Origin: Synechococcus sp. MU1642
GTDB taxonomy: Bacteria; Cyanobacteriota; Cyanobacteriia; PCC-6307; Cyanobiaceae
DNA length: 64,000 nt
Assembly (NCBI RefSeq): GCF_020514115.1
Contig: NZ_VTKZ01000001.1
Span: 248,001 to 312,000 of the forward strand
Direction: 5' to 3'
Position 1 is the stretch's first letter, and each line of letters opens with the position of its first letter. The translations under genes were made by a program, and so were the position numbers. Below, one piece after another: positions 8,105 to 57,322 of this stretch. The notes beneath the pieces are model-generated. The model did not search any database. It was not told the origin of the DNA and worked only from the letters and a program-made list of their open reading frames with translations.

Positions 8105-9319
8105 TTGGTTCAGCGGTGGAGGCCTCTAATTGCGTGTGCTCTGGCCAGCCTGATGGCGGGGCTTCCAGCCCCTCTGATGGCCGAGTCTCGATTGGATCGC
8201 CTGCTCCGGAACCGCAGCACCATGGGGGTGTGGCTGATCAACAGCCCCACTCGATTGGATCGCCTGCTCCGGAACCGCAGCACCATGGGGGTGTGGCTGA
8301 CCAACAGCCCCAGTCCGCTCTATTACGACCGGAAGCGCATCAGCGCTGCGATGCAGCAACTGCAGGATGCAGGGTTCAATCGCGTGGTGCCCAATGTCTG
8401 GAGCCGCGGCACCACGTTTCATCGCAGCCGCTTCGCTCCAGTGGAGCCAACGCTGCAGAAGGCTGGGATCGGTCTTGACCCCATCTGCACCCTGGCCGCT
8501 GAAGGTCGGCGCCTCGGCATCAAGGTGATGCCCTGGTTTGAGTACGGCCTGATGGAGCCGGCCGATTCATCCGTTGTGCGCGATAACCCCAGCTGGGTCT
8601 TGGCCAAAGCCAATGGCCAGCGTTGGATGACGATGCACGGCAACCATCGAATGGCTTGGCTCAATCCGTCTCATCCGGAGGTTCGTGCCCGCTTCATCGG
8701 GTTGGTGGTGGAAACCTTGAAGCGCTGTCCAATGGACGGTCTGCAACTGGACGATCACTTCGCCTGGCCGGTTCAGTTCGGTTATGACCCCACCACCGTG
8801 GCGCTGTACGAGCAGGAGACGGGACTGGCACCTCCTCGGGATCACAGCAATCGGCAGTGGATGAAATGGCGCCGCAATCAACTCACGTCTCTTTTGCGTG
8901 AGTTGCGGCAACGTCTCAAGCTGGAGCGCCTCTCCACCAGAATTAGCCTGTCTCCAGGCCCCTTCCGTTCGGCCTACAACCTCTGGCTGCAGGATTGGGA
9001 GCTCTGGGCTTTTGGCGGGTTGATTGAAGAGTTGGTGGTGCAGAACTATGCCTATTCCGTTCGAGGATTCGCCAAGGACTTGGATCAGCCGGCTCTGCGC
9101 AAAGCCCGCGACTGGGGCATTCCTTCGCAGATTGGTGTGTTGGCGGGATTCGGAAAGCGCACTACCTCGATGGCTGTTTTGGAGCAAAAAGTTCGCCTGG
9201 CCCGCCAGCGCGGTCATGGCGTGATTTTTTTCTACTGGGAAGGGTTATGGGGCAAGCATGTGGTGGAGCGGTATCGAGATTCTCGTCGCGCAGCATTCAT
9301 CCGGCTTGCATCTGATTGA
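8105..9319 (+). CDS. Secreted glycoside-hydrolase-like protein (GHL10/DUF187 type) with internal duplication
   Basis: A signal peptide (PLIACALASLMAGLPAPLMA) is followed by a TIM-barrel protein of the family that contains YngK. Family features are GVWLTNS (first strand), LQDAGFNRVVPNVWSRG, GIKVMPWFEYG, WLNPSHPEVRA, DGLQLDDHFAWP and VVQNYAYS. These proteins are thought to act on extracellular or cell-wall polysaccharide. Codons for 21 residues (RLDRLLRNRSTMGVWL-NSP) occur twice in tandem, at 8188-8250 and 8251-8313, so the first barrel strand is present twice. The start is a TTG at 8105; an in-frame TTG at 8081 is the alternative. Confidence 0.85.
   Translation: MVQRWRPLIACALASLMAGLPAPLMAESRLDRLLRNRSTMGVWLINSPTRLDRLLRNRSTMGVWLTNSPSPLYYDRKRISAAMQQLQDAGFNRVVPNVWSRGTTFHRSRFAPVEPTLQKAGIGLDPICTLAAEGRRLGIKVMPWFEYGLMEPADSSVVRDNPSWVLAKANGQRWMTMHGNHRMAWLNPSHPEVRARFIGLVVETLKRCPMDGLQLDDHFAWPVQFGYDPTTVALYEQETGLAPPRDHSNRQWMKWRRNQLTSLLRELRQRLKLERLSTRISLSPGPFRSAYNLWLQDWELWAFGGLIEELVVQNYAYSVRGFAKDLDQPALRKARDWGIPSQIGVLAGFGKRTTSMAVLEQKVRLARQRGHGVIFFYWEGLWGKHVVERYRDSRRAAFIRLASD
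8188..8313 (+). repeat. 63-bp in-frame tandem duplication
   Basis: The segment starting TCGATTGGATCGCCTGCTCC at 8188 recurs at 8251. The copies differ by T/C at the Ile/Thr codon (8239 versus 8302) and by the last base. Because 63 is a multiple of three, the reading frame stays open. Confidence 0.97.
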
Positions 9320-9355
9320 CCAGCGGATTCTGCTTGACACTATTTTTTTGACTGC

Positions 9356-9547
9356 ATGAAACAGTTCACCGAAACCAGTTCCGAACCCTATGACCGTCAC
9401 CACTACCGCGTGTGGTTGAGCGATGGGTCGTTCAAGGATGTCGAGAGCTATGACGAAGCACAACGTGTTTGGTTTTCCAGTAAGACAAGGCCAAGGACGA
9501 TAGAAGTGATGCAACCGAAGCGAAGAAAGAGTTCCAAAGGCTTCTAG
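9356..9547 (+). CDS. Small conserved-looking hypothetical protein
   Basis: This 63-residue basic protein has pattern HHYRVWLSDGSFKDVESYDE and a Lys/Arg-rich tail (PKRRKSSKGF). It looks like a short single-domain cyanobacterial protein; no function is recognised. It follows the hydrolase-like gene by 36 bp on the same strand. Confidence 0.6.
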   Translation: MKQFTETSSEPYDRHHYRVWLSDGSFKDVESYDEAQRVWFSSKTRPRTIEVMQPKRRKSSKGF

Positions 9548-9693
9548 GGATTTTGATGAAATTGCTGTTAATCAATCAAGTTTCGATCGATTCACTTGGC
9601 TGCAGCAAGTTTTTTCCCAGGTGAACCGCATTAAAAATGCAACCTCGCTAGGATGATTGGCCTGTAATTTCTTGCTTGACTCTTTGGCTCATG

Positions 9694-22661: not shown

Positions 22662-22796
22662 CTCGGTAGGGTGGAGTTCTGGTTTCAGCGGGGAACAGCC
22701 GCTGGAGGAAACGGGGAAAGAGCAGTGAAAATCTGCCGCTGTCCCGCAGCTGTGAAACGTCGGCCCTCCGCCTACGTCAGTCAGAACGCCCGCCAG
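22662..22796 (+). ncRNA. Cobalamin (B12) riboswitch
   Basis: The conserved core is present: ACGGGGAAAGAG, then GCAGTGAAAATCTGC (hairpin), then the B12 box-like GCTGTCCCGCAGCTGTGAA, and finally GTCAGTCAGAACGCCCGCC. It lies directly in front of a HupE-type permease and ends about 25 nt before its start, so it probably masks translation or terminates transcription when cobalamin is plentiful. Confidence 0.93.
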
Positions 22797-22819
22797 ATCA
22801 AACCGACGAGGATCGACTT

Positions 22820-24296: not shown

Positions 24297-25334
24297 TCAG
24301 GCACTGATCTTGGCATTCCCCATGTTGTCAAGCGCATCAGAAACACGCTTGAAGTTAAAGCCCATGCCGCGCAAGGCATGCCAAAAATGTCCTTGCAGGA
24401 AGAAGAATGCAAGGTAGAAGTGCGTATTGGCCAGCCAAGCCCGGGCTGAGTGGGCACCACCCTCAAGAGTAGTTGCGTCGCTGAAGTAGGGAGAGAAAGC
24501 GAAATTCAACTTCAATGGATCGCCATACAGCTCAACGGGGTAAATCGTTGTGTTTTGAGCACACCAAATGGCGGTCACAAAACCCATCAGAGCTATACCT
24601 GCAAGCGAGTAGGACAAGATCGACTCGCCGTTGTAGATCAAGACCTTTTTGAAGGGACCGAAAGGGGTGGAGATGATATGCCAAACACCACCAATCGTGA
24701 GAATGAAGGCCAAAACAGCATGGCCACCCATCACGTCCTCCAGACTGCTGATGGAAAGGAAATTAGCCTGATAACCCCACACCATGCCGAGGTCAATGTT
24801 TGGTTCAACCCGTCGAACAGCTCCGATTGCGCTGTCGTAAATGCCATGACGCTTTGCCCATTCGACGAAGGCGATCACTCCTAGGCCGAGAAAAATCAGA
24901 TGATGACCCAGGATGAAAGTGAGCTTTTTGCTATCACTCCATTCAAAATGAAACTTTTGGGCGCGGCCCTCAGCTTCTGAAAGGTCTTTGGGAGCTCGAA
25001 GCGTATGCCAGATTCCAGCTGCTCCAAGTACAGCAGATGAAACCAAATGGAAAGCTGCGATCGCGATGAGGGGTTGCTGGTCAACGATTACAGCACCTTC
25101 TCCTACGCCGAAACCAAGGCCGGCGAGATGTGGAATCAAAATCAGCCCTTGTTCTCCCATTGGCAGTGTTCCGTCATAACGGGCCAACTCAAACAAGGTG
25201 AATGCACCTGCCCAAAACATGATTAAACCTGCATGGGCAGCGTGGGCTGCAATGAAAGAACCGCTGCGCTTCGCGACTCCTGCATTTCCAGCCCACCAGT
25301 CATAACTGACTGACGAACTTCCGTAAGACTGCAT
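24297..25334 (-). CDS. isiA: Chlorophyll-binding antenna of the IsiA/Pcb family
   Basis: This CP43-like thylakoid protein forms antenna rings around photosystem I under iron stress. It has six membrane spans with chlorophyll-ligand histidines (AAHAAHAGLIMFWAG, HLAGLGFGVG, GHHLIFLGLGVIAF, GGHAVLAFILTIGGVWHI, ANTHFYLAFFFLQGHFWHAL). It lacks the large lumenal loop of CP43, and its 345-residue length is right for IsiA/Pcb. The neighbourhood of flavodoxin, ferritin and an iron transporter protein favours IsiA over constitutive Pcb. Two copies of TGGAATCATTTGATT lie 100-165 bp upstream. Confidence 0.93.
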   Translation of the reverse strand: MQSYGSSSVSYDWWAGNAGVAKRSGSFIAAHAAHAGLIMFWAGAFTLFELARYDGTLPMGEQGLILIPHLAGLGFGVGEGAVIVDQQPLIAIAAFHLVSSAVLGAAGIWHTLRAPKDLSEAEGRAQKFHFEWSDSKKLTFILGHHLIFLGLGVIAFVEWAKRHGIYDSAIGAVRRVEPNIDLGMVWGYQANFLSISSLEDVMGGHAVLAFILTIGGVWHIISTPFGPFKKVLIYNGESILSYSLAGIALMGFVTAIWCAQNTTIYPVELYGDPLKLNFAFSPYFSDATTLEGGAHSARAWLANTHFYLAFFFLQGHFWHALRGMGFNFKRVSDALDNMGNAKISA

Positions 25335-26851: not shown

Positions 26852-27052
26852 CTAAAAATAAATGTTTAATTTATGATTATGTGTTTCTATTGACCTCAAT
26901 ATACGTTGGCGCTCAATGACATTTTGAACTGTGGTCCGATGGGCTTCTGCAATTGCATCAACAAGGCCTATCGGCCATTTCGTTCCGCAGCGCATTTGCG
27001 CTTCTAATACCGATGCGTCAAGTTTTGACAACCGGCTTGTTTTTCGAGTCAT
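26852..27052 (-). CDS. Small hypothetical protein, possible HTH
   Basis: The 66-residue basic protein has a helix pattern (LDASVLEAQMRCG, IGLVDAIAEAHRTTVQNVIE) that could be a small DNA-binding fold. It is divergent from a small gene at 27060. Function unknown. Confidence 0.5.
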   Translation of the reverse strand: MTRKTSRLSKLDASVLEAQMRCGTKWPIGLVDAIAEAHRTTVQNVIERQRILRSIETHNHKLNIYF

Positions 27053-27059
27053 TGTGTTG

Positions 27060-27221
27060 ATGGTGAGAAGTAGAAAGCATCAACGCCAGTTATTGATGGG
27101 CAAAGATAAGCCCAAACAATTGTCCTGGTTTGGTTTAAATGCCACTCTGGCTCTTGAACCTGGACGGAAGAAGAGCCAGTTAACGCCCAATGAAACTGAC
27201 ATCGTCAGATTCATTGTTTGA
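27060..27221 (+). CDS. Small basic hypothetical protein
   Basis: The frame from ATG 27060 gives 53 residues with a basic N-terminus and protein-like tail (SQLTPNETDIVRFIV). An internal ATG at 27096 is an alternative start. Its start lies 7 bp from that of the divergent minus-strand gene. Function unknown. Confidence 0.45.
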   Translation: MVRSRKHQRQLLMGKDKPKQLSWFGLNATLALEPGRKKSQLTPNETDIVRFIV

Positions 27222-27531
27222 ACAGCTCCGGCTGGAGTGAACTGACCAATATAATTTTCGCGTTGTGCATTAGTACGTGTCTTTCACATGCCGCAGTACC
27301 ACGTTTCAATTGATGCACTCCCATGTAGTGATGCCAAATTAGTATTTTTTTTCAAGTTTACGCTTCATGAGCAGGCTATTACTCTTTGCAAGCCTTTGAT
27401 TTTTTGTTTGCCATTGGTGTCTTGTATGAATTTTGTTTTGTTGAACTATCACTCTGTATAATTCGAATGCTTATAGCCGTATTTATCAGTTGCAAAAAAA
27501 CTAATATTGATTGATGTTACTCGTCCTTCAC
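27222..27531. other. Intergenic region without recognised features
   Basis: The region is AT-rich with frequent stops in all frames. No terminator hairpin with a T-run was seen. Confidence 0.5.
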
Positions 27532-27738
27532 TTATTTGCTGCCTTGTTCTTTCGCTTTGACTGTTTGATTCTCAAGTCGCTCTGTTACGAGTTGCCTAAA
27601 ATCGCAATAATCAATATCTCCTGTCTTTTTGTCGAGCATGATTTCCTGCGCCTCCCTCATTAAATACTCGTAAGTGGCTGCATCATTTGTTCTATTAGCG
27701 AGATCAATAATGTGCGCGAATGCTTCGATGTTAGTCAA
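27532..27738 (-). CDS. Small helical hypothetical protein
   Basis: The 68-residue product is helical and charged (AFAHIIDLANRTNDAATYEY, LMREAQEIMLDKK). The start is TTG. It resembles short stress-type cyanobacterial proteins in composition only; no function recognised. Confidence 0.5.
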   Translation of the reverse strand: MTNIEAFAHIIDLANRTNDAATYEYLMREAQEIMLDKKTGDIDYCDFRQLVTERLENQTVKAKEQGSK

Positions 27739-28255
27739 GATTTGATTGCTGATCCTTGTAGTATATATTCAGTCAAGCCGAGTTCTGTTGTAAATTCTAC
27801 CAATCGATGGTTGCATTGATCGATTTGCATTTATTACCAATGCTTCGGTAATCTGCATCAGTCTTTCAGCCCTATCTGCCAGTCAGTTATTCGTGCTAAA
27901 GACTACACTTGTTTATCAAGAGATGATTTTCTTTGTTGTCTGGCCAAATAAAAGTTGGATCTTTTGAGTCCAATATGAAAAGGGATTGATTGTTGGGGCC
28001 GGTATTTCTAATGATCTTTTTACCTCGTCTCCTATTTTATTTCGCGATTAAGGGTCATCCTTTTGAGTTGAGGGCAGAATTTCATCAATTCGAGCCTTTC
28101 CGGATTGTTTCTTCGGTTTTTTGTTGTTGTATATCGAGATACCCCAGGGCAGCATTTTTCAGCAAAGGTCGCTGTTCTACATTCGGTGCATTGGTGTGAC
28201 AACGATTCGTACGCCTTTGCTTTTGGCCATAATAATTCAATGCAATTCTGGGAAT
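27739..28255. other. AT-rich intergenic region
   Basis: No convincing gene was found. A 69-codon + frame at 27990-28199 has unlikely composition. The region leads into the structured repeat array. Confidence 0.5.
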
Positions 28256-28261
28256 AAGTAA

Positions 28262-28425
28262 CCGGACTGACTCCTCTGTTTGAGCAGAGGAGTCAGTTGT
28301 AACCCCAGCGTGATGACCCGGATAAGCCATCGGATGAAGGTGCCTCGTAAGAACCTTCAATTCCATATTGACTGGTTTTCCTCAGAGCACGAGTACAAAA
28401 CACCTATTCTCAGCCATCAAATGAA
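28262..28425 (+). ncRNA. Structured repeat element, copy A
   Basis: Hairpin 1 is a perfect 12-bp stem, CTGACTCCTCTG (28267-28278) and CAGAGGAGTCAG (28285-28296). Hairpin 2 is a weaker CCGGAT/ATCGG. Hairpin 3 is GAAGG (28336-28340) with CCTTC (28354-28358), a compensatory version of the GGAGG/CCTCC stem in other copies. The 3' box survives as ATCAAATGA near 28415. Confidence 0.7.
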
Positions 28426-28464
28426 TCGATGATTGGTTTTCTTCTCCTCTGCGCCCTTGGTCTC

Positions 28465-28622
28465 TCCCTCTGTCCACTAATTGGAGAGGAGTCAGTGTTG
28501 TTACCCGCGTGAAATGGATCTGGATAAAACCCCTTAAGCCGATGTTACGAGTGAATATCTCTGAGTAGTTTCAATCCATTTCATGGGGATACCAGACAAT
28601 ATCAGTGCGTGCGTCAAATCAG
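28465..28622 (+). ncRNA. Structured repeat element, copy B (diverged)
   Basis: It aligns with copy A around GAGGAGTCAG and TTACCC-GCGTGA. The first stem is CTCTCC/GGAGAG, ATGGAT/ATCCAT forms a longer second stem, and the 3' box is CAGTG-TCAAAT-AG near 28603-28622. It is the most diverged member. Confidence 0.5.
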
Positions 28623-28650
28623 ATTTGGCAATTTTCTGTATTGAAACTAC

Positions 28651-28815
28651 GCTGATTTGACTCCCCGCATCGTCAGAGAGGGAGTCAGTGGTGTTATCAG
28701 CGCCCAATGGTCATGCAGGGGCCATTGGATGGAGGTGGGCCTCCAAAGTCACAGTCGCACTGTCCATGGCTATTGCTTGTTCTTAAGAGGAGATGGCAGT
28801 GATCAAATGAGCCGA
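28651..28815 (+). ncRNA. Structured repeat element, copy C
   Basis: Stem 1 is GACTCCC (28659-28665) with GGGAGTC (28680-28686). Stem 2 is CCAATGG (28704-28710) with CCATTGG (28722-28728). Stem 3 is GGAGG (28731-28735) with CCTCC (28740-28744). The 3' box GGCAGTGATCAAATGAGCC ends at about 28813. Confidence 0.75.
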
Positions 28816-28833
28816 GTCAATGTCCATAGCTGC

Positions 28834-29007
28834 TCACCTAAATACTGGACCAGCTGCGTTCTCAGGTTGAGCTGGAGGTGCTGGAGCTTGAATCCTGTTG
28901 TCTATCCGCAATGGTGAGAACAGCAGAAGGTTTCCGCCAACCAGCCCTGCCGTGACGACAATCGCGGTGACTACTTCCAGCAACTCAGTCGTTTTTCCTG
29001 AGATCAA
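28834..29007 (-). CDS. Small membrane protein between repeat copies C and D
   Basis: The minus-strand frame encodes a membrane span (VVTAIVVTAGLVGGNLLLFS) followed by a Pro-rich tail (APAPPAQPENAAGPVFR). Start candidates are TTG at 29007 (57 aa, GAAGGGTG ribosome site) and TTG at 28983 (49 aa). The composition is clearly protein-like. Function unknown. Confidence 0.45.
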   Translation of the reverse strand: MISGKTTELLEVVTAIVVTAGLVGGNLLLFSPLRIDNRIQAPAPPAQPENAAGPVFR

Positions 29008-29025
29008 GTCACCCTTCAGTTAACG

Positions 29026-29192
29026 CTGAACTGACTCCCCGCATCGTCAGAGAGGGAGCCAGGTCGCTCCAGCGCCCAATGGCATGGGTTTAGAGCCATT
29101 GGGTGGAGGTTTGGGGACTCCGAAGACACAATCACCCCTGTTAAGGGTTCGATTCGATACAAATGAGTCGGTGGCAGTGGCTAAATGAGTCA
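29026..29192 (+). ncRNA. Structured repeat element, copy D
   Basis: Stem 1 is CTGACTCCC (29031-29039) with GGGAGCCAG (29054-29062). Stem 2 is CCAATGG (29076-29082) with CCATTGG (29096-29102). Stem 3 is GGAG within 29105-29109 with CTCC (29118-29121). The 3' box is GGCAGTGGCTAAATGAG (29173-29189). Confidence 0.75.
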
Positions 29193-29218
29193 CCCGAATG
29201 TTGTGGCCAATCAAAACG

Positions 29219-29385
29219 CTGAGCTGACACCACCGGTTTAGAAAAGGAGTCAGAACCTGAATCAGCGCCCAATGTTCACTGCAGGAACCATTGGATGGAG
29301 GACTCGATGCTCCATGGGTAGCTTCTCCCTGGTTATTGGCTGTGTGCTGTGTTGATGTGACGGTAGTGGTGAATTTATGAGAGGT
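29219..29385 (+). ncRNA. Structured repeat element, copy E
   Basis: Stem 1 is CTGAC (29224-29228) with GTCAG (29249-29253). Stem 2 is CCAATG (29269-29274) with CATTGG (29289-29294). Stem 3 is GGAG within 29297-29301 with CTCC (29310-29313). The 3' box is GGTAGTGGTGAATTTATGAG at 29362-29381. Confidence 0.72.
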
Positions 29386-29502
29386 AGCAAGGTATCAGTG
29401 GGTGAATCCCATTCGCACCAGACAGTTCTGATTGCTGGAGCAGGAGTTGAGGTTCCGTTCTTTCCTGGCAAAATCCAGTTATAGAACGGGGTTAGTTTGT
29501 TG

Positions 29503-29601
29503 ATGCGATGGATCTATGTGCTGCTGATACACCTGGTTGCTTACGCAACTAGCCACGTGTTGGTCCCGTTCATGGCGACAGAAAGCATCAGCGTTGTCTA
29601 G
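29503..29601 (+). CDS. Possible 32-residue membrane peptide
   Basis: An ATG frame encodes one hydrophobic helix (WIYVLLIHLVAYATSHVLV) and a short tail. No ribosome site is obvious, so this may be chance. Function unknown. Confidence 0.3.
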   Translation: MRWIYVLLIHLVAYATSHVLVPFMATESISVV

Positions 29602-29877
29602 GTCTGCTTTTTTCACTAATTACTTTTTTGAGTTCTCTCCCGTTTGAGCTAGAGGGTGGGTTGATCAAAACCGTAGTTGTGTGCCTTCTGGTTACGACAA
29701 GGAAATACAGAGAAAACGCTCAATAAGAACACCTCAGAGTTGAATGCGATCCACTGGTCTCTCAGCGGCTGAGGTGTACTAGGCCTACATACATAAGGGC
29801 AATGCTTCGAATTCAGGGAGATGCGCAGCTGCTCCGATCACTTCTTCTGTGTGCGGAGGGAGCCTCCTCGCAGCGTA

Positions 29878-29894
29878 TTGAGAAAGAATCTCAA
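29878..29894. promoter_or_regulatory. Fur-like palindrome upstream of the Crp/Fnr-like regulator
   Basis: TTGAGA-AAGAA-TCTCAA is a 17-bp inverted repeat 82 bp upstream of the start codon; its core TGAGAAA-G-AATCTCA loosely fits a 7-1-7 Fur box. A second partial site, TGAGAATG, follows at 29909. Confidence 0.45.
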
Positions 29895-29975
29895 TTTAAG
29901 GGCCCTATTGAGAATGACTTGCAATATCGACAGGAAGTCTGTACTCTTGCGATTAATTCTCAATCGCGATAGTTC

Positions 29976-30578
29976 GTGACGACGTCTGCCTACCGTTTCC
30001 TGCCGGAAGATCCAGCGGCACCTTTGTCGATGCCCAGGCTTCAGACCGTTCTGCTGGACCCTGCTGGTCGAGACCAGGCCACCGTTCTGGAAGTGTTAGA
30101 GGGTGTCTGCCGGGTGTATTGCCCTTGCGAGGAGACCGAGGGAATGACCTTGGCGTTTTTGCAGTCAGGCGACAGGCTTCGCACTGATCGCATGTGCAGT
30201 GACGGGGCCTGTGTTGAGGCACTCACGGCGCTTAAGTTTCGCCGTGATTCCGTCTCCACGGATGAATTCGGCATCGACGCAGTCAATGAGTGGACGTTGC
30301 AGCTCTTGAGAGTCCGTCATTTGGGTCAGGCAGAACAGCGGCTTCACGCTCTTCTGGCGCTTTTGGTCAACCGGCTTGGACTTCGTTGCAGCGATGCTTA
30401 TCAGCTTCCTTTCCGTCTAACCCATGATCGTTTTGGCGAGTTGATTGGTGCTACCCGGGTGACTACAACCCGTCTTCTTTCGAAATGGCGTCAAGCGGAT
30501 TTGATTGCCATGTCGTCTGGTGATGTGACGATGCGTATTGCACCTGACCTCATCAACTCTTCACCTCTCCAATTCTGA
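29976..30578 (+). CDS. Crp/Fnr-family transcription regulator
   Basis: An N-terminal cyclic-nucleotide-type beta roll (about residues 20-110, LEVLEGVCRVYCPCEETEGM) and a long dimer helix (about 115-140) lead to a winged helix. The recognition region is LTHDRFGELIGATRVTTTRLLSKWRQ. The residues that bind cAMP in Crp are not evident, so the effector is unknown; several Cys residues could sense redox or iron. Start is GTG. It sits at one side of the iron-stress genes, with a second family member at the other side (39.7 kb). Confidence 0.85.
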   Translation: MTTSAYRFLPEDPAAPLSMPRLQTVLLDPAGRDQATVLEVLEGVCRVYCPCEETEGMTLAFLQSGDRLRTDRMCSDGACVEALTALKFRRDSVSTDEFGIDAVNEWTLQLLRVRHLGQAEQRLHALLALLVNRLGLRCSDAYQLPFRLTHDRFGELIGATRVTTTRLLSKWRQADLIAMSSGDVTMRIAPDLINSSPLQF

Positions 30579-31326: not shown

Positions 31327-31453
31327 ATAAAAATTCTTATGGCGGACCTAGGTGAATGAGTTCTTCTGATGTGACTGATCTCACCTGCAGTTGAAACAAG
31401 CTTTAATCGGGAATAAAGAGTATTTGCGATTCTTGTGGGGTGATTTCTTTTGC

Positions 31454-31963
31454 ATGACTTTCACCATTTTCTTTGCCACCTCTACGGGCAAAACTGAAGA
31501 CGTGGCTGATCGACTGAAGGAGCTTCTTCCTGGTACAGAAGCGAAGGATGTCGACAACATTGATTCAATCGAAGAGTTGGTTTCAGCTGAGTCGTTGATT
31601 TGTTGTGTTCCAACCTGGAATACCGGTGCTGATGAGGCAAGATCCGGAACAGCATGGGATGATCTAGTTCAGGAAATTCCAGATAAGGATTTTGCCGGAA
31701 AATCAGTTGCTATCGTTGGACTAGGCGATTCCTCCGGTTATTCCGATTTTTTCTGTGATGCTATGGAGGAATTGTATACGTCCTTCCTTCAATCTGGTGC
31801 CAAGTTGATTGGTAAGGTCTCCACAGAAGGGTACACCTATGATGAATCAAAGAGCGTTATTGACGGTAAGTTCTGCGGACTCGCAATCGATGAAGATAAC
31901 GAGTCGGAATTAACAGATCAACGATTGCAAGCCTGGGTTCAGCAAATAAATGCGGAGTCTTGA
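31454..31963 (+). CDS. isiB: Flavodoxin
   Basis: This FMN electron carrier replaces ferredoxin at photosystem I when iron is scarce. The phosphate loop is FFATSTGKTEDVADRL; the flanking aromatic loops are PTWNTGADEARSGTAWDD and GLGDSSGYSDFFCDAMEEL. Length of 169 aa is typical of long-chain flavodoxins. The ATG at 31454 is chosen because the conserved strand begins immediately after it. A terminator follows directly. Confidence 0.96.
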   Translation: MTFTIFFATSTGKTEDVADRLKELLPGTEAKDVDNIDSIEELVSAESLICCVPTWNTGADEARSGTAWDDLVQEIPDKDFAGKSVAIVGLGDSSGYSDFFCDAMEELYTSFLQSGAKLIGKVSTEGYTYDESKSVIDGKFCGLAIDEDNESELTDQRLQAWVQQINAES

Positions 31964-54225: not shown

Positions 54226-54986
54226 GAATCAACGGGACGACTTAAGCACTTGCTTTCTAGTTTGCTTATAAACCTTTAAATATCGCAAATAGGTAATTAT
54301 ATTTCTTTCATTATCTTCTGATTAAGGTCTCATCGGATCGAATGTTGCTGAGGGCGTGACCGGCGTTTTCGAGCAGCTCCCTCTGCCGCGATGGCTGACC
54401 TTCAACCAAGCTGCGACCTAACGATGTGGAGCCACGAAACCGCGAGGAGAAACGAGTCCTCCTCGAGCGATGCGGTATCCGTACAAGTACGTTCGCCACT
54501 TCAAACAGATTTGCGCCTGACGCACTGAATTTCTAAAGCTTTAAGGCGCAGAGAGATTTCCCCGTTGATCGCTCTCAAAGGGGAAATTCTTCTGCCAGCA
54601 CCAGGGTCGCTCGCCCCGTGCTGCTCAGCACTACATCTGGTCTGCAGGCAACTGTGGGTTTAATGATGAGGCCATACAGCAGGCTTGTCCGGAAATTTCT
54701 GAAGTTGTTCTGATACGCCAAAAATTTCGGCAGATCCAGATGATGGTTGCGATTGATACGGACTCGTCGAATGCTCGATTGCCCCCGCCTTGTGAAGAGT
54801 TTCTCCCAGGCCTTTTGATCGATGGGGCACGGGAGAAAGGCTGGATTCGCTAGACAAACGGACCCAGCAGTTGCCGCTGACTTGGGTCCGCGTCCCGGGC
54901 TAGGCGCATGAGACCAGGACGCAGTACACATAAGCCATTGGAGCCAGTGGATTCAGCGAAATTCGCTACTCAAATGGCTCCACTGG
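54226..54986. other. Region with only doubtful reading frames
   Basis: Minus frames at 54311-54499 (62 aa) and 54575-54931 (118 aa, with NRNHHLDLPKFLAYQNNFRN) may be remnants of genes. Neither has a recognisable family or ribosome site. Confidence 0.35.
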
Positions 54987-56318: not shown

Positions 56319-56667
56319 TCGCCAAGGATGGCAGCGATTCTCTGGAACGCCCAATCTGCTCGAAGGGTTGATGAGACAACAAAAAGAGGGTAGCCCCTTA
56401 GCCATCCCTCTAGACGCATTCGGAGGCAACACTTCCACATGAATCAGTCCGGTTCAGTTTGGTGTGCAATGTGCAGCCTTTCGAACTGAATTGCAGATGA
56501 ATTAGGCGTTTCTTCTTAGTGAGATTCGTTATCGAGGCGTTGTGGTAATGGACTATGCGCGCGCACCACTGCTTTTGCGCGAATGGGAGATGAACGATGC
56601 ACGTTGCCTCGCCCGCGTCCCCCTGACTCTTCATCGACTTAGCAGAGCGCAGCGTCGCAACCTTGCT
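56319..56667. other. Intergenic region
   Basis: A minus frame (56410-56676) starts inside the 3' box of the repeat element; its composition is doubtful. No other feature is recognised. Confidence 0.4.
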
Positions 56668-56837
56668 GCGGCTCATTTGGTCACTGCCATTGCCTCATTG
56701 GGTCGTCATTGAACCTATGGGCTCGGCGACGGTGTCGTTGGAGCGTCCATAACCTCCATCCAATCGAACCTGCATAACCATTGGGAGCTGACAAGGAAGC
56801 TGGCTTCTCTCTGACCAGGGGGGAGTCAGTTCAGCGT
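56668..56837 (-). ncRNA. Structured repeat element, copy F (minus strand)
   Basis: Read on the minus strand, stem 1 is CTGACT with AGCCAG, stem 2 is CCAAT (56784-56780) with ATTGG (56764-56760), and stem 3 is GGAG with CTCC (56757-56740). The 3' box GGCAGTGACCAAATGAGCC (56688-56670) is nearly identical to that of copy C, 28 kb away. Confidence 0.75.
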
Positions 56838-56925
56838 GATTGGCGTCTGAACAGCGCCAAGTGATATTTGCAAGTGCGATTTGCTCATGGCGTGGTCTCG
56901 TGGAATCAATAGTGGATCTTGTGAC

Positions 56926-57024
56926 ATGACTCCTCTTGTGCTGCCCCTCGCTGGCCTGGTGCTGGTTTTGGCTCAAATTATCTACGGGTCTCAAACGCAG
57001 AGCCAAGACCGAGAACTCCATTAA
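56926..57024 (+). CDS. Possible 32-residue membrane peptide
   Basis: An ATG frame gives one hydrophobic helix (PLVLPLAGLVLVLAQIIYG) and a polar tail. It is divergent from repeat copy F. Function unknown. Confidence 0.4.
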   Translation: MTPLVLPLAGLVLVLAQIIYGSQTQSQDRELH

Positions 57025-57322
57025 TCAGGCATCCACTGCGACGTTGCTTTGGCTCAAGGGATACTGTCGCTATTTCGTCTCAATCGCTCTCAACCCATAG
57101 CTGGGATGTTGAAAGTTCTGCGGCAACGGAGTCTCAATCCAAAGGGCACCAAGTCCACTGCACGCTCACAACACCACTGACACCTCTGCTAGTGAAATGT
57201 CCTGGGAATCAGCTCAGTGTTGTGGGACGGGTGCTGAAAAGCATCAAGCATTTCTAGTGATTCAACTAGCAGTTGAAACGAACGACCACTTGAGCCACAA
57301 CTGGTTTGTCGCAACAACTCAG
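57025..57322. other. Intergenic region
   Basis: Nothing is recognised before the duplicated segment, which begins near 57269. Confidence 0.45.

Follow-up and report, generated by a model that had tools for sequence, protein, structure and literature searches.

A repeated structured element beside small genes in a marine Synechococcus genus: a candidate leader RNA

The genome of Synechococcus sp. MU1642 carries an array of a structured element of about 190 nt at positions 28262-29385 of the 64,000-nt stretch analyzed here (the window). Of the five copies in the array, A, C, D and E are good and B is a remnant; all lie on one strand. The element has no name and is absent from the public RNA-family library, and its four helices, P1 to P4, are supported by compensatory changes. 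The reading that we favor, with a probability of roughly 0.4, is that the element is a cis-acting leader RNA that spread together with small genes.

Copies of the element in the window and in the genus

A covariance model, R1, finds the element where a preliminary description of the window had placed it, with matches for copies A, C, D and E on the nominal plus strand and for a further copy, F, on the minus strand. Since the training copies of R1 include A, C, D, E and F, their bit scores are not independent. R1 detects the element in 21 of the 34 genomes of the genus, which indicates that it is not due to chance. The copies and the neighboring features are given below; for the copies scored by R1, the first strand is that of the likely RNA and the nominal strand is between brackets.

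26852-27052, minus: conserved gene of 66 aa, adjoining the weak candidate copy at 27132
27132-27333, likely minus (nominal plus): weak candidate copy, R1 26.5 bits, E 1.1e-4; about 80 nt before the 66-aa gene, whose start faces it
28032-28230, minus: second L33 gene, present as a remnant with its frame interrupted near codon 11; start codon 21 nt from copy A
28252-28444, likely minus (nominal plus): copy A, R1 102.3 bits
28464-28638 (about), minus: copy B, degenerate remnant, nhmmer 84.5 bits with an HMM trained on B itself; absent from the R1 matches
28642-28830, likely minus (nominal plus): copy C, complete, R1 162.7 bits
28650-28655 with 28697-28702, minus: P1 of copy C, CGCTGA/TCAGCG on plus, enclosing P2 (sequence and family covariation)
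28657-28665 with 28680-28688, minus: P2 of copy C, inside P1 (sequence and family covariation)
28704-28710 with 28722-28728, minus: P3 of copy C, CCAATGG/CCATTGG on plus (sequence and family covariation)
28731-28735 with 28740-28744, minus: P4 of copy C, GGAGG/CCTCC on plus (sequence and family covariation)
28795-28811, strand not assigned: conserved box of copy C, GGCAGTGATCAAATGAG (sequence and alignments)
28834-29007, minus: small ORF of 57 aa separating C from D, resembling a membrane protein when judged by eye
29016-29208, likely minus (nominal plus): copy D, complete, R1 162.5 bits
29209-29400, likely minus (nominal plus): copy E, with a degenerate box, R1 138.7 bits
56653-56844, likely plus (nominal minus): copy F, R1 154.7 bits
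57034-57227, likely plus (nominal minus): weak copy, R1 28.9 bits, E 2.7e-5

All the stems first described, and the box, are present in copies C and D. The third of these stems, P4, reads GGAGG/CCTCC in C but GAAGG/CCTTC in A, in agreement with the description; A belongs to the subtype that adjoins the L33 remnant and has a long P2. Other parts of the description had to be amended. Of the five tandem copies proposed, four are good, but B is a remnant and the array is not cleanly tandem: D is directly followed by E, A and C are separated by 197 nt holding B, and C and D by 185 nt holding the opposite-strand small ORF. The box, attributed to the 3' end of every copy, is found in C and D but is degenerate in E. 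Finally, the three stems listed are real, but P1, the outer helix around the first of them, had been overlooked.

The array is a real locus but not an isolated one, as it is one site of a family repeated throughout the genus. The 21 genomes with at least one R1 match, which include 13 of the 19 whose completeness reaches 90%, contain 1 to 27 copies each: 27 in G030, 21 in G020, 17 in G000, 14 in G014, 13 in G009, 11 in G005, 9 in both G001 and G003, 8 in G017, 7 in G012 and 1-3 in the remaining eleven. For the window's genome the count is 17-19, of which 17 were detected by R1 at E 0.01 and the rest added by nhmmer as remnants. Blastn against this genome, with a cut-off of E 10, likewise gave 17 matches, but the lowest-ranking few are likely due to chance. 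The genome's copies are distributed over the window's array, the region near 56653-57227, another array on contig C4 and, singly, contig C22.

The element was detected in this genus only. A second model, R2, was positive in 13 of 250 genomes of the order, all from this one of 34 genera, with stricter filters and 10 candidates scored per genome, so that weak distant forms could escape it. By blastn, 14 of 59 genomes matched, the own genome included, and none of these lay outside the genus. A pattern scan of genome contigs returned 44 stretches, 7 of which were confirmed by R1, all of them from Synechococcus. Weak R1 matches at L043 (E 0.03) and L049 (E 0.23) were taken as chance. A phage or plasmid carrier was rejected, as neither collection gave a match; R1 found the element in none of five IMG/VR pattern matches.

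Neighboring copies lie on the same strand in 73 pairs (copies longer than 150 nt) versus 2 pairs on opposite strands (all matches). It was also observed that 17 of the 73 inter-copy spacers measure 184-197 nt, about one unit, irrespective of whether their content is a remnant or a small gene. These spacers come from arrays in the window, L009, L090, L093, L107 and L118.

Secondary structure, covariation and strand

In the order of the nominal strand, the consensus consists of P1 (CGCTGA/TCAGCG) around P2 (CTGACTCCC/GGGAGTCAG), followed by P3 (CCAATGG/CCATTGG) and by P4, which is either GGAGG/CCTCC or GAAGG/CCTTC. Paired changes had been put forward as an argument for selection on RNA structure, and covariation was indeed recovered in a larger alignment. 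Among 111 aligned copies, 154 cells showed a double change versus 50.8 +/- 5.1 after shuffling, and none of 500 shuffles reached 154, this count being biased in favor of P1-P4 by an alignment fitted to them. Sliding one helix partner out of register left only 15-57 double-change cells. In the same copies, 89.9% of the P1-P4 cells are paired (86.3% when shuffled) and 17 of the 28 pairs changed on both sides (10.7 +/- 1.5 when shuffled), while the number of further pair types, 38 versus 35.8, was not in excess. Copies that have diverged remain about 90% paired, suggesting that many of them are under selection in place and arguing against dead repeats.

A blind scan for stacked helices was performed on a 58-copy alignment built without structure. 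P4, P3, P2 and P1 came out at ranks 1, 3, 6 and 8 of the 30 helices listed; the top single pairs were mostly outside the helices. The consensus base is kept in 65-71% of cases in unpaired columns versus 81-95% in helix columns, and the last 85-86 nt, which include the box GGCAGTG--CAAATGAG, have a near-constant length in 88 of 103 copies. A hairpin drawn by eye after P4 was rejected. So was a long reverse-strand helix proposed by RNAalifold in the last third of the element: it was 66.1% paired versus 63.4% when shuffled, and its 41 double changes were near the shuffled value (32.3 +/- 6.5) and mostly below those of slid versions (40-74). At L009 4574-4805 the element has an additional small hairpin after P2 (AACGCTGACACTCAGCG in L009), as though P1 had been doubled, and similar variants occur in L090, L097, L101 and L111.

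The absence of a name, claimed from the start, agrees with the database searches. An Rfam 15 covariance search of the window, for which a score at gathering level was the criterion, gave three matches, none of them on the element, and a permissive search of 27500-30000 returned one chance snoRNA match at 29760-29853. The openly accessible part of the PMC literature yielded no description of the element. A protein frame, raised early on as a possible cause of the conservation, does not account for it: in 103 copies, loop lengths fall into all three classes modulo 3 and the longest open stretch is 56.5 aa versus 54.2 aa when shuffled. A peptide at the 3' box was also discarded, its frame being broken by single-base length changes upstream.

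The stems had been described on the plus strand, for which the nominal orientation was retained above. However, three kinds of evidence lean towards the reverse strand. For 49 copies less than 85% identical, drawn from the 75 best full-length ones, the mean z of the folding energy was -2.58 on the reverse strand and -2.02 on the nominal one (p 1.9e-4), and the energy excess over shuffles favored the reverse strand in 35 of these 49 copies. In 54 of 74 copies, the same helices gained stability when read on the reverse strand (p 4.8e-6), a comparison weakened by the consensus itself, which is already 1.4 kcal/mol more stable in that direction. Lastly, stem mismatches on the nominal strand were A.C in 69 cases and G.U in 33 (78 copies, four end pairs excluded), or 105 and 63 when the end pairs were included. 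As A.C on the nominal strand is G.U on the other, these mismatches point to the reverse strand as the RNA. Counted by pairs, the lean is 18 versus 8, with the outermost P4 pair going the opposite way. The strand opposite to the one first described is therefore the more probable folded RNA, which is a lean and not a proof.

Small genes next to the element

Nine gene families on the P1 side were judged real, the coding strand being assigned by eye where there was no Pfam match. In eight of them the start codon faces P1, at about 5-80 nt. These eight include the second L33, DUF3104 (PF11302), a protein with a Cys-rich tail, and small proteins of the MKRSLK-, TTEMLEVV-, MTPLVLPL-, MIRLAVE- and MSRKST- types; the ninth, a conserved family of the MSNTNDPNAWHLG type, ends at P1 instead of starting there. 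Ambiguous ORF groups were excluded from this count, as were two plausible but more distant genes, the first with its start 138-191 nt from P1 and the second with its end about 230 nt away. A codon-based automatic gene caller, which is weak, revealed no trend on the P1 (5') side, where the nearest gene was on the opposite strand in 28 cases and on the same strand in 32. On the other (3') side it gave 39 opposite and 21 same, as expected if a reverse-strand element follows the stop codon of a gene.

The second L33 gene, intact or as a remnant, was found in all nine genomes with at least 8 copies of the element and in none of the 25 others, two of which gave no L33 match whatsoever and several of which are incomplete. 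Its start lies 21-23 nt from the element in eight aligned genomes. Six related genomes have an open frame at the corresponding array. In G017 the gene is reduced to a fragment, and in both G020 and the window's genome, which retain the element, the frame is broken. At this gene, identities over 28 pairs from eight genomes were 65-98% for copy A and 67-96% for the 260 nt beside it, gene included; copy A is about as conserved as this stretch.

The 57-aa ORF has relatives that likewise lie between copies; these were seen in L093, L107 and L118 and, within another array, in L090. A separate observation concerns two flavodoxin genes with 65% DNA identity, one by each array: window 31391-31963 (plus) and L009 at about 9040-9580 (minus).

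The leader RNA reading and its alternatives

If the element is a leader RNA, the reverse-strand transcript would present, from 5' to 3', the conserved segment of 85-86 nt, P4, P3, and P1 closed around P2. With the start of a small gene about 5-80 nt past P1, it would form part of the 5' leader or intercistronic RNA of this gene, and would control the translation of the gene or the stability of its message. Tandem copies would then be repeated leader units, spread by tandem duplication and by transfer jointly with the small gene. The evidence leans towards the reverse strand and towards a place before start codons, and together these favor a cis leader role. Several observations count against it. 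The second L33 gene is broken in two genomes while the element stays, the MSNTNDPNAWHLG-type family ends at P1, the weak gene caller showed no P1-side trend, and four abutting units without any intervening gene (L009 10327-11138) are hard to reconcile with a leader. Moreover, no conserved flanks were visible by eye at the element, and no promoter or terminator could be attributed to the unit. Promoter-like sites in the window's array numbered 0 for 2.0 expected, and terminator-like sites 3 for 1.7 expected, including a minus-strand site that falls within D. Arrays devoid of genes and the lack of a visible unit promoter leave some room for a mobile element or for sibling small RNAs. It seems rather unlikely that the element represents a leader-RNA cassette of a new kind, that is, a structured 5' leader multiplying head to tail and travelling with small accessory genes.

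The element might instead be a non-autonomous mobile or recombinogenic DNA, whose hairpins would be single-stranded folds or cruciforms recognized by a recombinase supplied elsewhere, recombination enlarging the arrays. This we consider doubtful, though well worth weighing. It would fit the variation in copy number within one genus, from 0 to 27, and the recurrence of several small genes with their adjoining element at non-orthologous places. Related stretches with and without the element exist in G020 and G001. At the DUF3104 flanks in G001, the element is present in L108 and absent from L176 and L191; compared with L100, 27 and 24 nt, respectively, separate the aligned flanks and 33 flank bases around the element are unaligned, the ends of the insertion not being placeable to the base. 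Genes for PF00589 recombinases adjoin copies in L010 and L094, the one in L010 being below the family cut-off, and three more lie within about 4 kb of copies, among 44 matches in seven genomes. However, any recombinase action on the element is putative. Of the two adjacent recombinases, one had no NCBIfam match and the other only weak matches far below the cut-off, among them a match with the model entitled tyrosine recombinase/integron integrase. The transposase search covered the Y1 family, which the host of an IS200/IS605 or REP/RAYT derivative should possess; it was absent from the nine copy-rich genomes and present in 4 of the 34 genus genomes. Reverse transcriptase (PF00078), which a retroelement such as a group II intron or a retron would call for, was found in none of these 34, versus 3 of 14 control genomes. 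ERIC and NEMIS are transcribed intergenic hairpin repeats of 100-200 nt, dispersed and with inverted ends. The element shares their size and their dispersed, intergenic and hairpin-forming nature but differs by its head-to-tail arrays and by its ends, as none of 109 copies had the terminal inverted repeats of a MITE with 12 of 14 positions matching (mean 8.26 versus 8.11 shuffled). Integron attC sites fold, are of comparable size and form same-strand arrays close to small genes; the element resembles them in these respects but lacks their core pair, RYYYAAC and GTTRRRY occurring together in 0 of 109 copies on either strand. Nor are diverged copies that keep 90% of their pairs what is expected from dead repeats. 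An exchange of modules between copies was rejected, as only 1 of 98 passed a strict mosaic test. The spacer between C and D in the window shares 96% identity with a spacer in the second array of G030, and 85% with its G030 counterpart in the same array.

Trans-acting sibling small RNAs, comparable to Yfr2-5 or Yfr103 and cut between units from array transcripts, are an unlikely explanation. The structure, the discrete size, the head-to-tail arrays and the box within a segment of near-fixed length would suit them, and marine Synechococcus possess abundant multi-copy ncRNAs: the accessible part of PMC5069720 describes 58 ncRNA start sites and seven Yfr103 paralogues in CC9605. On the other hand, a conserved promoter or terminator was seen at neither end of the element, and section 8 of PMC5069720 mentions no further paralogue family for CC9605. 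Like the element, Yfr2-5 exist as several related structured copies per genome, but the GGAAACA repeat in their 5' hairpin loop, described in the accessible part of PMC1242208, is not in the element consensus. Very unlikely, finally, is that the helices are DNA-level palindromes binding a regulator or a nucleoid protein, with no RNA function. They are by nature inverted repeats in the DNA, on both strands; however, loop lengths vary while double changes restore the pairs, and a strand asymmetry is not expected for duplex DNA.

Among known RNAs, Cyano-2 (RF01702), which we tentatively take to be Yfr103, resembles the element in being structured, about 200 nt long and present in several copies per genome (5 above the cut-off in G000 and as many in G030). 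The two differ in that the single Cyano-2 match in the window is off the element and G032, where R1 did not find the element, has three. Six Cyano-2 RNAs from four genomes lie 0.1-3 kb from the element, all on its nominal strand, including window 54427-54625 (minus) and G020:C1:504270-504470 (plus), the latter 80 nt from the element; four of the six places seem orthologous. The window also contains a cobalamin riboswitch at 22663-22811 (plus) and an IsrR antisense RNA at 24770-24941 (plus), opposite a gene recognized by eye as encoding a chlorophyll-binding protein. An IsrR-like antisense RNA to pcbD is reported for CC9605 in the accessible part of PMC5069720.

Altogether, many copies of the element seem to be kept in use, with matching mutations that preserve pairing. 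Marine Synechococcus are among the most abundant photosynthetic organisms, and strains with 9-27 copies are, we believe, in culture. A family this frequent and constrained, without an Rfam entry, points to a system of control or of mobility, for which strains and data sets that allow a test already exist. If the leader-cassette reading were true, unrelated small genes in one marine Synechococcus genus would share a single RNA control element.
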